From: Rhodospirillales bacterium
GTDB taxonomy: Bacteria; Pseudomonadota; Alphaproteobacteria; Reyranellales; Reyranellaceae
DNA: 64,000 nt
Assembly: GCA_947466085.1 (NCBI GenBank)
Contig: CANIEC010000001.1
Span: 1-64,000, forward strand
Direction of reading: 5' to 3'
The position numbers were made by a program, and so were the translations under genes. Below, one piece after another: positions 5,350 through 49,077 of the stretch; positions within the stretch are counted from its first letter, which is position 1, and the number at the start of each line of letters is the position of its first letter. The notes beneath the pieces are model-generated. The model was not told where the DNA came from. It saw only the letters and a program-made list of their open reading frames with translations, and did not search any database.

Positions 5350-6405
5350 ATGTCGCGTCCCTTCCGCCTTTCCGTCCTCGACCAGTCGATCGCCGTCTCC
5401 GGTCGGCCGCAGGACCAGTCCATCCGAAACACCGTGTCGCTCGCCAAGCACTGCGAGGCGCTGGGCTACGAGCGCTTCTGGGTGTCGGAGCACCACAATC
5501 ACCCGACCATCGTCGGGACCGCGCCCGAGATCGTGATGGCGGCGATCGCCGCCACGACGGAGCGCATCCGCATCGGCAGCGCCGGCATCATGCTGCCGCA
5601 TTATTCGCCGTTCAAAGTCGCCGAGGTCTTCCGCGTGCTCGAGGCACTGGCGCCGGGGCGCATCGACATGGGCCTCGGCCGTGCGCCGGGATCCGACGGC
5701 CGCACCGCCTTCGCGCTCAATCCCGCGGCCAACGAACGGCCCGAGCACTTCCCCGCCGATGTGCGCGACCTGATCGCCTGGGTGAACAACGAACCGTTGA
5801 TCGAGCGCCATCCCTTCGGAACGGTGAAGGCCTTTCCCCAGAGCCCGACCGCGCCCGAGGTCTGGATCCTCGGCAGCTCCGATTACGGCGCGCAGGTCGC
5901 GGCGCTGTTCGGCCTGCCCTATTGCTACGCTTGGTTCTTCAGCGACGGCGCCGGCGGCGAGCGCGCCATCGACCTCTACAAGCGGACCTATCGTCCGAGC
6001 GCGCGCCATCCCGAGCCGCATTCCGCCCTCTGCGTCTGGGCGCTGGCCGCCGAGACGATGGAGAAGGCGCAATATCACTTCACGTCGCGGGCACTGAGCC
6101 GCATCAACCGCGACAAGAACATCCTGGGGCCGCTGCTGCCGCCTGACGAGGCCGCTCAGGCGCCGCTCACCGCCTATGAAGCGGCGAAGATGGAACAGTT
6201 CCGCAAGGACTCCTTCGTCGGCACCGGCCCCGAGGTTGCGGCCCGCATCACCGAATTGAAGGACCGTGTCGGCGTCGACGAGATGGCCGTCGTCACCTGG
6301 ACCCACGACGAGCAGGTCCGCCGCGACAGCTACACCGAACTCGCCAAGGCCTACGGCTTCGCGCCGGAGGCGTTAGTTCTTTCAGACCACAAGACCTCAT
6401 CCTGA
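5350..6405 (+). CDS. LLM-class (luciferase-like) flavin-dependent oxidoreductase
   Basis: A 351-aa TIM-barrel protein of the bacterial luciferase superfamily, single-subunit MsnO8/alkanal-monooxygenase-like type. Diagnostic stretches are WVSEHHNHPTIVGTAPE, RIRIGSAGIMLPHYSPFKVAE and RIDMGLGRAPGSDG. It should use reduced FMN supplied by a partner reductase. The ATG at 5350 is chosen because the family N-terminus starts there; the ribosome site is weak. The final codons (HKTSS and stop) lie inside the palindromic repeat at 6395-6502, so the natural C-terminus may have been replaced by repeat sequence. Confidence 0.88.
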   Translation: MSRPFRLSVLDQSIAVSGRPQDQSIRNTVSLAKHCEALGYERFWVSEHHNHPTIVGTAPEIVMAAIAATTERIRIGSAGIMLPHYSPFKVAEVFRVLEALAPGRIDMGLGRAPGSDGRTAFALNPAANERPEHFPADVRDLIAWVNNEPLIERHPFGTVKAFPQSPTAPEVWILGSSDYGAQVAALFGLPYCYAWFFSDGAGGERAIDLYKRTYRPSARHPEPHSALCVWALAAETMEKAQYHFTSRALSRINRDKNILGPLLPPDEAAQAPLTAYEAAKMEQFRKDSFVGTGPEVAARITELKDRVGVDEMAVVTWTHDEQVRRDSYTELAKAYGFAPEALVLSDHKTSS

Positions 6406-6502
6406 GGAGGCCCGAAGGGCCGTCTCGAAGGATGGGCAACAGGCGTGGTGCTCGTGCCCATGCTTCGAGACGCGCTCCTGCGGAGCGCTCCTCAGCATGA
6501 GG
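6395..6502. repeat. Long palindromic REP-like element overlapping a stop codon
   Basis: The left arm 6395-6438 and right arm 6455-6502 are inverted copies built from the blocks CCTCATCCTGAGGAG, CGTCTCGAAGGATG and GGGCA with small differences. Each arm also contains self-complementary blocks. The blocks resemble the dispersed palindromes known from Bradyrhizobium-type genomes (from memory). It lies between convergent genes and could terminate both transcripts. Confidence 0.8.
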
Positions 6503-6536
6503 TTGATACTGGAAGGAGGAACGTCCTTGAAGGACT

Positions 6537-13410: not shown

Positions 13411-14570
13411 AGGCGCGCATCGATGCGATCCTGAGCGAAGCCGTGCAGCGTGGCGACGTGCCCGGCGTCGCCGCCGTCGCGACCGACGGAAACGGCACGA
13501 TCTACGAGGGCGGCTTCGGCAAGGCGGTGCTGGGCCAGGATGCCGGAATGACACCCGACACCGTCGTGTGGATCGCCTCCATGACCAAGGCCATCACCGG
13601 CGCCGTTGCGATGCAGCAGGTCGAGCGCGGCACGCTGAAGCTCGATGCGCCGGCCCGGGATGTGATCCCGTATCTCGGCGAAGTGCAGGTGCTGGAAGGC
13701 TTCGATGCGGAAGGCAAGCCGCGCTTGCGCAAGCCCGTGCGCGACATCACCCTGCGTCATCTGCTGACGCACACCGCAGGCTTCGGCTACGACATCTGGA
13801 ATCCGGAAATCCTGCGGTATCGCGAGGTCATGGATGTGCCGACCATCGGCACCGGCCTCGACAAATCGCTGACGACACCCCTGCTGTTCGATCCCGGCGC
13901 CCGCTGGCAATACGGAATCGGCATCGATTGGGCCGGCAAGATGGTCGAGGCGGTGACGGGCCGAAAGCTCGGCCAGGTGATGCACGACGATCTGTTCGGA
14001 CCGCTCGGCATGGACAGCACCGGCTTCCGCCTCACGCCGGCGATGCGCGCCCGCATGGCCCGCGTCCATCACCGCAAGGCCGACGGAAGCCTCGTCGCCG
14101 ACCTCAAGCGCGAGGTCCCGCAGGATCCCGAGTTCGAGGCGGGCGGCGGCGGTCTCTACTCGACGGCCAACGACTACCTGAAGTTCGTCCGCATGGTGCT
14201 GGACGACGGCAGGTCGGCGCGCGGCGAGGCGGTCATGAAGCCCGAAACGGTCGATGCGATGGCGGGCAACGCGATGGGCGATTCGACGGTGTGCCTGCTC
14301 AAGACCGTGATGCCGGCTTTGTCCAACGATGCCGAATTCTTCCCCGGCGTCACGAAGAAGTGGGGCCTCAGCTTCATGATCAACGACGAAGAGGCGCCGA
14401 CCGGCCGCTCGCCCGGCAGCCTCTCCTGGGCCGGCCTGCCGAACACCTACTACTGGATCGACCGCAGGAAACGACTGGGCGGCGTCTACATGAGCCAGGT
14501 CCTGCCCTTCGCCGACGTGAAGGCGCTGCCGCTCTTCTACGCCTTCGAGAGCGCGGTTTACGGGCGTTAA
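13407..14570 (+). CDS. Class C beta-lactamase-like serine hydrolase
   Basis: A 387-aa protein of the beta-lactamase/esterase EstB family. Ser58 and Lys61 lie in the SMTK motif, the LRHLLTHTAGFGYDI loop follows, and a YGI replaces the usual YxN around residue 170; this favours an esterase or peptidase over a true beta-lactamase. No signal peptide is evident, again unlike a lactamase. The ATG overlaps the stop of the upstream peptidase, so the two are translationally coupled, possibly for stepwise degradation of a peptide or ester. Confidence 0.88.
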   Translation: MKARIDAILSEAVQRGDVPGVAAVATDGNGTIYEGGFGKAVLGQDAGMTPDTVVWIASMTKAITGAVAMQQVERGTLKLDAPARDVIPYLGEVQVLEGFDAEGKPRLRKPVRDITLRHLLTHTAGFGYDIWNPEILRYREVMDVPTIGTGLDKSLTTPLLFDPGARWQYGIGIDWAGKMVEAVTGRKLGQVMHDDLFGPLGMDSTGFRLTPAMRARMARVHHRKADGSLVADLKREVPQDPEFEAGGGGLYSTANDYLKFVRMVLDDGRSARGEAVMKPETVDAMAGNAMGDSTVCLLKTVMPALSNDAEFFPGVTKKWGLSFMINDEEAPTGRSPGSLSWAGLPNTYYWIDRRKRLGGVYMSQVLPFADVKALPLFYAFESAVYGR

Positions 14571-14636
14571 AAAGGCTCGTCGTCTCGACCGTAGCCTCGC
14601 TGCGCGAGGCTACGGTCGAGACGACGAAACCTTTAA
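14571..14636. repeat. Perfect 23-bp inverted repeat with 3-nt loop
   Basis: Positions 14578-14600 and 14604-14626 are exact inverse complements around TGC, and AAAGG/CCTTT flank them in the same symmetry. The hairpin begins 8 bp after the serine hydrolase stop. The right arm encodes the last codons and stop of the convergent cyclase. It is a very strong two-way terminator candidate and a likely member of a dispersed palindrome family. Confidence 0.85.
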
Positions 14637-15844
14637 ACCAAACAGCTCCGTGTCCTCGCGGACGCCCCGCAGGCGATGGCGGCCGAGTGAGACCAGCCGG
14701 TCGCGGCTTGCGGTCGCCGCTTCGGCGAAGGCCTGCGACATCAGCAGCGCCTGGCCGAGCGGCTCGCAAAGTGCCTCGATGCGCGAGGCCTCGTTGACCG
14801 CGGGACCGATCACGGTGAAATCGAGCCGCGTATCGGAGCCGACATTGCCGTACAGGACACGGCCGGTATGCAGGGAGATGTCGAGCGACGTTGCGGGTTG
14901 TCCGGCGTCTCGCCACTCCCCGTTCAGCGCATCGACGCGGGCCAGCACTTCCTCTGCGGCCGCCAGCGCAGCGGCGCAGACCTCGGCCCGGTCGTCGAGG
15001 ATCACCGCGAAGGCCGCCAGCATGCCGTCGCCCATGAACTTCAGCACCTCGCCGCCGTGCGCGACGATCGGCTGGACCATGCAGTTGAAGTAATCGTCGA
15101 GCAGCGCGATCAGCTCGCGCCCGGGCATCGTATCGGCGAGCGCCGTGAAGCCCCGAAGGTCGGTGAAGAGCACCACGGCCTCGACACTCTGCACTTCGCC
15201 GCGCAGTACGGTGCCGGCCAGAACGCGACTCGCGGGGTCGTTGCCGAGATAGGCCGCAAGCAATCCGTGGCCGATGCCGCGCAGGCTGGTAGCCTTCACG
15301 GCAAGAGCGAAGACCGGCAGCACCTCACGCAGGAGCGCGACGTCCTCGTCGGAAAAGCCGCCCGGACGGTCGGTCGCGGCCGAAACGGCGAGCCACAGCC
15401 GCTCGGCATGATCCGCTTCGGTCGGGCTGCCGACCTGCGGCGTCAGCTCGCCGAAGGGCTGCACCCAGCCCATCCACTCGGTCATGCCCGCGCCGCGCAG
15501 CTCGTCGAACACGGGGATGTCGGGCAGATCATCGGCGGCGTCGAGATGCTGTCGCAGCTCGGCGATGCCATCGCGCAGCATCGCGGCAAAAGGGCTCTGC
15601 TGGTCAGCGCCGTATCGACATCGGCGTGGCCGAACTCGAAATGCCGTGCGACACCCTCGCCCGAATTCCAGATCAGGCTGCGCGCCCGCACCATGGGATG
15701 CAGCGTGTTCATGCCGACGAACATGCGTTCGACGCGCAATCCGGCGTCATTGAGTCGCCTGCCAAAGCCGTCGACCAGCTCCCCCAGCGACATGTTGCGC
15801 AGGCCGGCCTGCGCCAGCCAGCCGGCCATCGCGACGGCCGTCAT
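14610..15844 (-). pseudogene. Class III adenylate cyclase interrupted by one frameshift
   Basis: The N-terminal part begins MTAVAMAGWLAQAGL at 15844 and reads well to about 15595. The catalytic part continues in another frame to 14610. Restoring one base in the AAAAGGG run (plus strand 15588-15594) joins them as TSRAPFAAMLRDG, giving about 411 residues, the usual length. The cyclase domain keeps its residues: metal Asp in LFTDLRGFTAL, Lys and second Asp in VLKFMGDGMLAAF, and Asp/Asn in LDFTVIGPAVNEASR. It is the last gene of a minus-strand operon, 7 bp after the deacetylase. Whether the shift is real or a sequencing error cannot be decided here. Confidence 0.8.
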
Positions 15845-45364: not shown

Positions 45365-45441
45365 TGCTGGGGGCGTGCCACTTCAGTGGCGCGATCTTCA
45401 GGCAAAAGAAAGACGCGCCACTGGAGTGGCGCGCCCCAGCA
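45365..45441. repeat. Palindromic repeat filling the gap between convergent genes
   Basis: Arms 45365-45397 and 45411-45441 are inverse copies with about four differences (blocks TGCTGGGG, GTGGCGCG, TCT). Each arm contains a small hairpin of GCCAC/GTGGC type. It begins directly after the MBL stop and ends 5 bp before the LLM stop. Likely a two-way terminator or a dispersed repeat. Confidence 0.75.
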
Positions 45442-46737: not shown

Positions 46738-49077
46738 ATGTCCGAGGCTTCTTCCCTACCGCTCGCGCGCTTCACGATCGTCGAGGTGAACGACGCAAAA
46801 GTGCCGCTTTGCCTGCGTCTTGCGACGTCGCTTGCTGCGAAGATCGCAGCCGATCTCGGCGCCGACGTGCTCAAGATCGAGCCGCCGGGCGGCGATCCTG
46901 TGCGTCGGGCGCCGCCCCTGCTGCCGCAGGGCGGAAGCGCGCTGTTCCAGTTTCTCAACACGTCGAAGCGCTCGCTGGTGCTTGATCTTGCAAGCGAGTC
47001 GGGCCGCGCCGTGCTCGCAGGTCTGGTCGACAAGGCCGATGTCGTGCTGTTCGAAGAGCCGGCGTCCGTCGCGTCGACGCTGCGCGCGGGCAAGGCGACG
47101 CCGGTCGAGATCGCGGCCTTTCCGCTCGAGATGAACGCAGCGCAGCGTCCCGTCAGCGAACTGGTGATCCAGGCGCTGGGTGGGCTGATGCACATGGTCG
47201 GCGAGCCGGCACGCAAGCCGCTGAAGCTGGGCGGCCATCAGGCGTCGTATGCCGCAGGCCTCACCGCCTTCACCGGACTCATGGCGGCGCTCGCCGCGCG
47301 TGATACGGGCCGGTCGGCGCCTTCCGTGCGTGTGTCGCTCGCCGAGGTGATGCAATGGGTGAACTGGAAGGCGGCCTCCGGGGCCGCAGCCTCAGGAATC
47401 TCGCCTGGCCGCGAGGGCAGGAACTCTGAATTCCAGGTCCTGCCCTGCCGCGACGGGCATGTCGCCGTCGTCTACACGGTGACACAGTGGCCTGCGACGC
47501 GTGCCCTGATCGGCGATTCCCGACTCGACGATCCGAAGTTCGGCACTCGAGCCGGCCGTCGCCAGAACATCGCCGAGCTCTATGCCGCGCTCGCGCCGTG
47601 GTTCGCCGACAGGACGCGCGACGAGATCCAGAAGACCGCACAGGCCAGGGGCGTCCCGTTCGGCCCGATCTTCTCACCCGCCGAGCTGCTGCAGACGGAG
47701 CAGTATGTGGCGCGCGGCTTCCTGGCCGACATGGCGCATCCGACGCGGGGCCGGCTGCGCCTGCCGCAACTTCCCGTGCAATGGAACGGCCGCTCTTTCG
47801 CGCCACGGCCCGCGCCTGATCTTCCTCCTCCCCATTCAAATGGGGAGGTGTCCTCGTCACACGAGGGCGGAGGGGGCAGAGGCCAACCCGCGAAAGATAT
47901 GACCCCTCCGTCGCGGATGACCGCGATACCTCCCCATTTGAATGGGGAGGTTGGCGAGCGTCCTCTCGCCGGCATCCGCGTGCTCGATTTCGGTCTCCTG
48001 ACCGCCGGCGCGAACACCTCGGCCATGCTGGCCGATCTCGGCGCCGACGTGATCAAGATCGAGTCCGGCGCCTATCTCGATCCCTTCCGCGTCGTCGGCA
48101 AGATCGACAGCGACGAGGGCTGGTGGAACCGCTCACCGCAGTTCCTCTTCACCAACCGCAACAAGCGCGGGCTGGCGCTCAACCTGAAGGACCCCGAGGG
48201 CCAGCGCGTGATCCGCGAACTCGCCGCGCATTGCGACGTCGTGGTCGAGAATTTCCGCCGCGGCGTGCTCGACCGGGCGGGCCTGGGCTACAAGGATCTG
48301 AGCGCGATCAACCCCCGCCTGGTGTTCGCCGCCATCTCCAGCCAGGGCGACACGGGCCCCGAGCGCATGAACGTGTCGTTCGGCAGCACGCTCGACGCCA
48401 CCTCGGGCATCGCCTCGCTCACCGGCTACGAGGCCGAGGAGCCGCGCATCTCCGGCATGGACGTGAACTATCCCGACCAGATCGTCTCGCTGTTCGCCAC
48501 CGGCATCGTCATCGCGGCCGTCACGGAAGCGCGCCGCACCGGACAGGGTGCGTTTCTCGATTTTTCCCAGCGCGAGGTCGCGTCGTTCACGCTCGGCGAG
48601 GAGATCCTTACGGCGTCAGCCGATCCGAACCATCGGCTGGCGCCACGCGGCAACAGCGAAGCGGGCGTGGCGCAGCAGGACTCCCATCAATGTGCAGACG
48701 GCAAATGGCTGGCCGTGACCCTCGACACACCCGATCCGTCGATGGCGACCTTCTGCGCCGGCAAGGACCGTGACGCTGCACTGAACGCGCTGCTGGGCAA
48801 AGGCATTGCCGCAGCGCCCTGCCTCGACGGCAACGACCTGCTGCGCGACACCGCGCTCCAAGGCGTCACGCTGGTGCGCGACGAGAAGGGTGGCCTCGTG
48901 AAAGGACTGCCCTACCGACTCGACGGCAAGGGTCTCGCCATCGAGCGGCCCGCCCCCGATCTCGGCCAGCACACCGAGGAGGTGCTGCGCGAGCTGTTGG
49001 GCTACGACGATGCCCGCCTGAAGCAGTTGAACGACAGCGGCGTGACCTCGACCACGCCCACCATAGGAGACGTTTGA
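46738..49077 (+). CDS. Tandem-domain CaiB/BaiF (family III) CoA transferase
   Basis: A 779-aa fusion of two family III CoA-transferase domains (residues about 10-360 and 405-770) moving CoA between carboxylic acids. Domain 2 keeps the catalytic Asp (D580 in MDVNYPDQIVS). In domain 1 the equivalent place reads HQASYAAG, with Ser170, so that half is probably not catalytic. The linker, residues 364-404, is encoded by a palindromic repeat and reads PPPHSNGEV and PPHLNGEV at its ends. The ATG at 46738 fits best. It leads the long plus-strand catabolic run. Confidence 0.88.
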   Translation: MSEASSLPLARFTIVEVNDAKVPLCLRLATSLAAKIAADLGADVLKIEPPGGDPVRRAPPLLPQGGSALFQFLNTSKRSLVLDLASESGRAVLAGLVDKADVVLFEEPASVASTLRAGKATPVEIAAFPLEMNAAQRPVSELVIQALGGLMHMVGEPARKPLKLGGHQASYAAGLTAFTGLMAALAARDTGRSAPSVRVSLAEVMQWVNWKAASGAAASGISPGREGRNSEFQVLPCRDGHVAVVYTVTQWPATRALIGDSRLDDPKFGTRAGRRQNIAELYAALAPWFADRTRDEIQKTAQARGVPFGPIFSPAELLQTEQYVARGFLADMAHPTRGRLRLPQLPVQWNGRSFAPRPAPDLPPPHSNGEVSSSHEGGGGRGQPAKDMTPPSRMTAIPPHLNGEVGERPLAGIRVLDFGLLTAGANTSAMLADLGADVIKIESGAYLDPFRVVGKIDSDEGWWNRSPQFLFTNRNKRGLALNLKDPEGQRVIRELAAHCDVVVENFRRGVLDRAGLGYKDLSAINPRLVFAAISSQGDTGPERMNVSFGSTLDATSGIASLTGYEAEEPRISGMDVNYPDQIVSLFATGIVIAAVTEARRTGQGAFLDFSQREVASFTLGEEILTASADPNHRLAPRGNSEAGVAQQDSHQCADGKWLAVTLDTPDPSMATFCAGKDRDAALNALLGKGIAAAPCLDGNDLLRDTALQGVTLVRDEKGGLVKGLPYRLDGKGLAIERPAPDLGQHTEEVLRELLGYDDARLKQLNDSGVTSTTPTIGDV
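47827..47950. repeat. Palindromic element inside the CoA transferase coding region
   Basis: A 22-bp arm at 47827-47848 and its exact inverse at 47929-47950 each form a hairpin (CCTCCCCAT/ATGGGGAGG with a 4-nt loop). Inside them CGGAGGGG and CCCCTCCG pair again. The 124-bp unit looks like the dispersed intergenic palindromes of alphaproteobacteria but here stays in frame and is translated. The rest of the gene is intact on both sides. Confidence 0.85.

Follow-up and report, generated by a model that had tools for sequence, protein, structure and literature searches.

Protein-coding palindromes are known to lengthen single proteins, and the question raised by the locus analysed here is how such a repeat came to lie, in frame, between two complete enzyme domains of one gene. 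In the window (the whole 64,000-nt stretch of DNA that was analysed) a plus-strand gene at 46738-49077 encodes 779 amino acids and stays open through a palindromic repeat with a core of 124 bp (47827-47950; the covariance model spans 47821-47956). According to the initial annotation, two CoA-transferase domains are joined here by the in-frame translation of a nested palindrome, and our analysis bears it out: the arms are exact, the frame is open and the Pfam family CoA_transf_3 is matched on both sides (E 3.7e-140), which identifies both domains as class III (CaiB/BaiF) CoA-transferase domains. Domain 1 occupies 46738-47823 and domain 2, with the stop codon, 47959-49077; the linker of 135 nt between them (47824-47958, residues 363-407) consists of the repeat and its edges.

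The 22-bp left arm (CCTCCCCATTCAAATGGGGAGG, 47827-47848) and right arm (CCTCCCCATTTGAATGGGGAGG, 47929-47950) are exact reverse complements, each also nearly palindromic by itself, and shuffled windows indicate that no such arm matches are expected by chance. Between the arms lie inner stem-loop A (CCTCG/CGAGG, 47852-47866), a central hairpin whose loop is variable (GGAGGGG...CCCCTCC, 47868-47911), recognised from folding and from the alignment of copies, and inner stem-loop B (CGCGG/CCGCG, 47912-47925). As RNA, the segment has a predicted folding energy of -84.5 kcal/mol, whereas shuffled versions reach -45.4 +/- 3.8; the corresponding z is -10.4, and that of the opposite strand -8.5.

Similar elements had been said to occur elsewhere in the window, and this part of the initial annotation did not survive: a covariance-model search of the window returned 47827-47950 as the sole copy, and the remaining palindromes differ from it in sequence. 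At gathering thresholds, Rfam has no match in the window. Among these other palindromes, a distinct repeat at 6395-6503 (CCTCATCCTGAGGAG...CTCCTCAGCATGAGG) lies close to a gene end and is of the type that is inserted at the hyuA/hyuB junction of four relatives; one at 2275-2343 has 33-nt arms ending in TGTCATCCCGAGCG, fills a short gap between convergent genes and may be a REP-type dimer. A near-perfect 35-nt inverted repeat at 14566-14638 sits where two convergent reading frames meet and is possibly a bidirectional terminator, and a 24-nt inverted repeat at 45370-45437 separates a convergent gene pair just upstream of the CoA-transferase locus.

Outside the window the repeat is abundant. Relatives and named genomes place the window in Reyranella, a genus of soil and water bacteria, and sequence comparison establishes a dispersed repeat family there. 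In the window's own genome, blastn gave 80 hits in about 40 places and the covariance model R1, which scores the window element at 118.3 bits (E 5.7e-30) as a member of the family, brings the total obtained by these searches to about 50. Each of the 37 Reyranella genomes searched yielded matches; beyond the genus, R1 found matches in 3 of about 238 genomes in an even draw of the Alphaproteobacteria (E <= 1e-8), these matches being diverged relatives that share the layout. Copies are about 120-145 bp long, single half elements occur (L067, L070, L071), and 37 aligned copies share a mean column identity of 78%, with the sequences of both inner stems differing among copies through compensatory changes. 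Fifty copies in the genome were examined for placement, two of which lay at contig ends and could not be classified; by a simple codon-usage score, used in place of curated annotation, 30 of the other 48 have convergent neighbours, 16 have neighbours in tandem, none has divergent neighbours and 2 lie within genes. The initial annotation had proposed counting copies of the arm between genes, with the absence of any other copy from the genome speaking against its reading; the roughly 50 further copies remove that objection.

The median distance from stop codon to element is 13 nt. The lengths of 37 ordinary copies show no preference for multiples of three (15/11/11 for the three residues modulo 3), and only 8-14 of the 37 (22-38%) are open in a given frame. 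Many copies end in GGGGAGG, a strong Shine-Dalgarno match, often placed a few bases before the ATG in tandem pairs, so that the repeat terminus might provide a ribosome-binding site there. In alignment A1, columns 8 and 137 pair a U in the left arm with a G in the right arm in most copies; only one of the two strands can pair in this way, as RNA or as single-stranded DNA, which hints at a preferred strand.

Is the fusion older than the repeat, or is it a product of the repeat? The initial annotation had left both options open and had suggested a comparison of orthologs, in which a conserved linker in other genera would speak against its view. In 44 orthologous loci, outgroup genera included, the two domains are separate genes whose frames differ by 2, and no insert is found. 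Reyranella soli NBRC 108950 is an unfused example. The relatives in other genera are thus unfused and carry no such linker. Most unfused junctions are of the ATGA type, in which the stop codon of gene 1 overlaps the start codon of gene 2; some have GTGA or a short gap. Another 15 loci, namely that of the window and 14 others including the isolate Reyranella aquatilis KCTC 52223, are fused, and nearly all of their linkers contain a whole or partial recognisable repeat; many of the loci come from metagenome-assembled genomes (MAGs). The comparison establishes the unfused arrangement as ancestral, as far as sequence can. Since all insert-free loci are unfused and out of frame, the comparison settles the choice between the two options in favour of the creation of the fusion by repeat insertion and against insertion into a gene already fused.

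The fused linkers measure 63, 66, 75, 81, 114, 132, 135 or 141 nt, all multiples of three and free of stops, which establishes at the sequence level that the frame has been maintained. If indels were free, the probability that seven length changes would all preserve the frame is roughly (1/3)^7 = 0.0005, an approximate figure because the events are deduced from lengths. No target-site duplication is seen when filled and empty CoA-transferase junctions are compared. Two assemblies deserve mention: in G034 (loci L088 and L096) the assembly breaks within the palindrome and the linker carries an in-frame TGA, and the MAG G013, in which a fused ortholog occurs together with an unfused one (L080 and L126), is probably a mixed bin (6% contamination).

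How often the repeat was inserted can be approached through the phylogeny. In a tree of both domains the fused loci fall in three places: the window clade, where they are intermixed with the unfused L089, L090, L091 and L126; L081, a lone fused locus within an unfused clade; and a five-member clade (L082-L085 and L087). The AU test rejects a single clade of all fused loci (p 0.0003), as well as the fused loci of the window clade grouped alone (p 0.0002) or together with L081 (p 1e-8). Two flanking-gene trees place L081 with its unfused neighbours, and they place L089 with the window's group. The L081 linker (141 nt) has a different right edge and seems to retain target bases (CTGAGC), and the arms and stems of the five-member clade are different ones; these differences in edges, arms or stems favour two or three separate insertions. 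Within the window clade, nearly full-length linkers of 135 nt share similar stems A and B, and their common length suggests that the repeat entered this clade once and that species later exchanged alleles of the fused and the unfused kind.

A single insertion for all fused loci, with the scattered states produced by recombination between species, including transfer of short junction segments, is the most serious competitor, and although we consider it the less probable history it keeps a substantial share of our credence. The likeness of the window-clade linkers is in its favour, as is the mixture of fused and unfused alleles in species that the flanking-gene trees nevertheless group together. 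The AU rejections exclude simple vertical descent but are compatible with transfer; what weighs against a single insertion is the distinct edge and length of the linker of L081 in its otherwise unfused clade, together with the divergent arms and stems of the clade of five.

With two or three insertions as the favoured reading, we turn to what the fused gene would encode. Foldseek matches to SUGCT, BbsEF and Frc agree with a class III fold, and for domain 2 the PDB relatives are SUGCT, formyl-CoA transferase and BbsEF. All 41 domain-2 sequences have the catalytic aspartate (Asp580 in the window). At the equivalent position of domain 1, where the window has Ser170, the 41 sequences have S (37), A (2), P (1) or C (1), never Asp. 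With the aspartate in domain 2 only, the domains resemble two different subunits of a single enzyme, that is, one catalytic and one noncatalytic subunit of a class III CoA-transferase heteromer. BbsEF is likewise a class III CoA-transferase of two unlike subunits, and its solved chains match both Reyranella domains; the BbsEF subunits, however, are separate chains. For both domains, dN/dS between fused pairs is 0.08-0.17, the same as between unfused pairs, establishing from codon changes that both are under purifying selection, and the linker, with mean dN 0.21 and dS 0.27, appears to evolve nearly neutrally. The predicted model of the full chain (pTM 0.86) has two folded domains, and residues 365-406 are disordered (pLDDT below 50). 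Since class III enzymes are described as interlocked dimers (PMC9196870), a covalent tether between partners that already interlock would be expected to be harmless or mildly helpful.

Both subunits could still be made as separate proteins if domain 2 were translated from an ATG within the repeat (47899-47901 in the window) or by reinitiation. Such an in-frame ATG occurs in the linker of 13 of the 15 fused loci, and in the MAG G034 (L088) the linker TGA precedes the ATG, at a contig break; if this TGA is real, the fusion is non-obligatory in G034. We nonetheless regard separate translation as unlikely. In L085 and L087, the two fused relatives that lack the ATG, no ATG, GTG or TTG occurs anywhere from the end of the domain-1 core to the first strand of domain 2, and domain 2 could therefore hardly be produced on its own there. 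Elsewhere the linker ATG mostly falls in a strongly conserved block of the repeat (ATGACCCCTCC), where its retention requires no selection, and no consistent Shine-Dalgarno sequence lies upstream; moreover, all eight linker lengths keep domain 2 in frame with domain 1. The fused product, we infer, is synthesised as a single chain that would fold into a covalent heterodimer.

Entry of the repeat into a gene that was already fused is, in our judgement, very improbable. Apart from L085, which is fused and has only a poorly recognisable repeat remnant, nothing positive speaks for it, and the clade within which L085 is nested has the repeat in its other members. No fused gene free of insert-derived sequence was seen among the orthologous loci, and the insert-free junctions are out of frame in 44 cases out of 44. 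That the locus is a pseudogene or an assembly artefact, as the many MAGs and the tendency of palindromes to break assemblies (G034) might suggest, is scarcely credible given 15 assemblies, one of them from a cultured strain, and a dN/dS of about 0.1 in both domains.

The account that emerges, in which a mobile (or formerly mobile) Reyranella repeat was inserted at a gene overlap and made one fused gene, we hold to be highly probable. The family would consist of mobile or formerly mobile palindromes that normally lie a few bases behind the stop codons of genes. The ancestor would have had two overlapping (ATGA) and probably translationally coupled genes for unlike subunits, one with the catalytic aspartate and one without it. 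Insertion of the repeat at the overlap would have deleted the stop codon of gene 1 and the start codon of gene 2, and a frame open by chance would have joined both. Later changes in the linker would have been tolerated only when they kept the frame, because gene 2 had lost its own start. The predicted product is one 779-residue chain of about 83 kDa, with a disordered linker of about 42 residues holding the two subunits together.

The CoA-transferase locus is not the only gene entered by the repeat in this genome. A copy at C42:24565-24696 lies in frame within a UPF0280-like gene (L009 / G000:C42:24140-25120, minus strand), which scores above cut-off for the NCBIfam family NF003322; Pfam has no family for the interrupted protein. 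The gene is uninterrupted in 23 other Reyranella loci, and comparison of filled and empty sites reveals 144 nt in place of 6 nt, in frame, with no flanking direct repeat or target-site duplication. Judged by this comparison, the copy is a classical protein-coding palindrome, independent of the CoA-transferase case. Long open frames also run across further copies in this genome (L005, L018, L025, L028, L073 and others), but these were discarded, as the coding signal on the two flanks is not in that frame.

A further gene overlap has been hit with a different outcome. In most relatives the genes hyuA (caprolactamase-alpha-like) and hyuB share an ATGA overlap. Their junction in the window's genome holds a copy of the repeat (L002 / G000:C1:76544-76676), within which hyuA ends; elsewhere (loci L217-L234), G005 has a half copy and G008, G015, G017 and G021 have an unrelated palindrome. 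Three different palindromic inserts thus occupy this site, where the genes are separated and not fused, which points to the stop/start overlap as a type of site that is hit repeatedly and with differing outcomes. Overlaps may be preferred, or they may merely be seen because repeats land at the 3' ends of genes. Tentatively, and with more doubt than confidence, we suggest that operon stop/start overlaps are recurrent landing sites of palindromes and that they provide a repeated, selectively kept route of bacterial gene fusion in which unlike subunits are joined by repeat-encoded linkers.

How does the element compare with known repeat classes? The Rickettsia palindromic elements (RPE), as recounted from Ogata et al. 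2000 in PMC10969869 and PMC2229807, are alphaproteobacterial palindromes of about 100-150 bp that lie between genes and also, in frame, within genes of unrelated function, to which they add about 40 residues. The Reyranella repeat is likewise palindromic, alphaproteobacterial, and located both between genes and in frame inside genes, the latter at the 15 CoA-transferase loci and in the UPF0280-like gene, with translation judged from frame and selection. The resemblance to RPE drawn in the initial annotation is thereby sustained for behaviour: in two genes the repeat works like an RPE, and the likeness is one of conduct. The organism differs, however, the Reyranella copies are mostly at gene ends with only 2 of about 50 in frame in genes, and in Reyranella a pair of complete genes is joined by the element.

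MITEs, examples of which are ERIC/RU-1 and the Coxiella QMITEs that form in-frame ORF fusions, are short non-autonomous inverted-repeat elements, mostly intergenic and sometimes translated with a neighbouring gene (PMC2759123, PMC5896051, PMC10969869); in the cases reported there, one ORF is extended or interrupted and two overlapping genes are not merged. The Reyranella repeat shares with them its short length, multiple copies, terminal inverted repeats and lack of coding capacity of its own, but differs in that neither the UPF0280-like nor the CoA-transferase site has a target-site duplication. With REP/BIME elements, including the CGTC-tagged REP dimers of alphaproteobacteria, which are head-to-head palindromes at gene ends with known intragenic members (PMC3733652), it has in common gene-end placement, a head-to-head build and the occurrence of single halves, whereas its half is a two-hairpin unit longer than the 20-40-bp REP. 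A search covering the Y1 transposase only (PF01797) gave no match in the repeat-bearing genomes G002, G004, G006, G008, G010, G015 and G018, and a Y1/RAYT transposase was rejected as the mobiliser for want of association with repeat-bearing genomes. The open-access literature that we searched yielded no report in which two overlapping genes were merged by a palindromic repeat; the new part is the fusion of a gene pair by a repeat.

For this repeat-made gene fusion, the states before and after the event are both preserved in living relatives, and more than once. This allows direct tests of how a selfish repeat joins subunits, of the fate of translational coupling, and of whether a tethered enzyme is better or merely tolerated. 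If the overlap-landing reading is true, the fusion of unlike enzyme subunits by repeat-encoded linkers would be something that happens again and again in bacteria.
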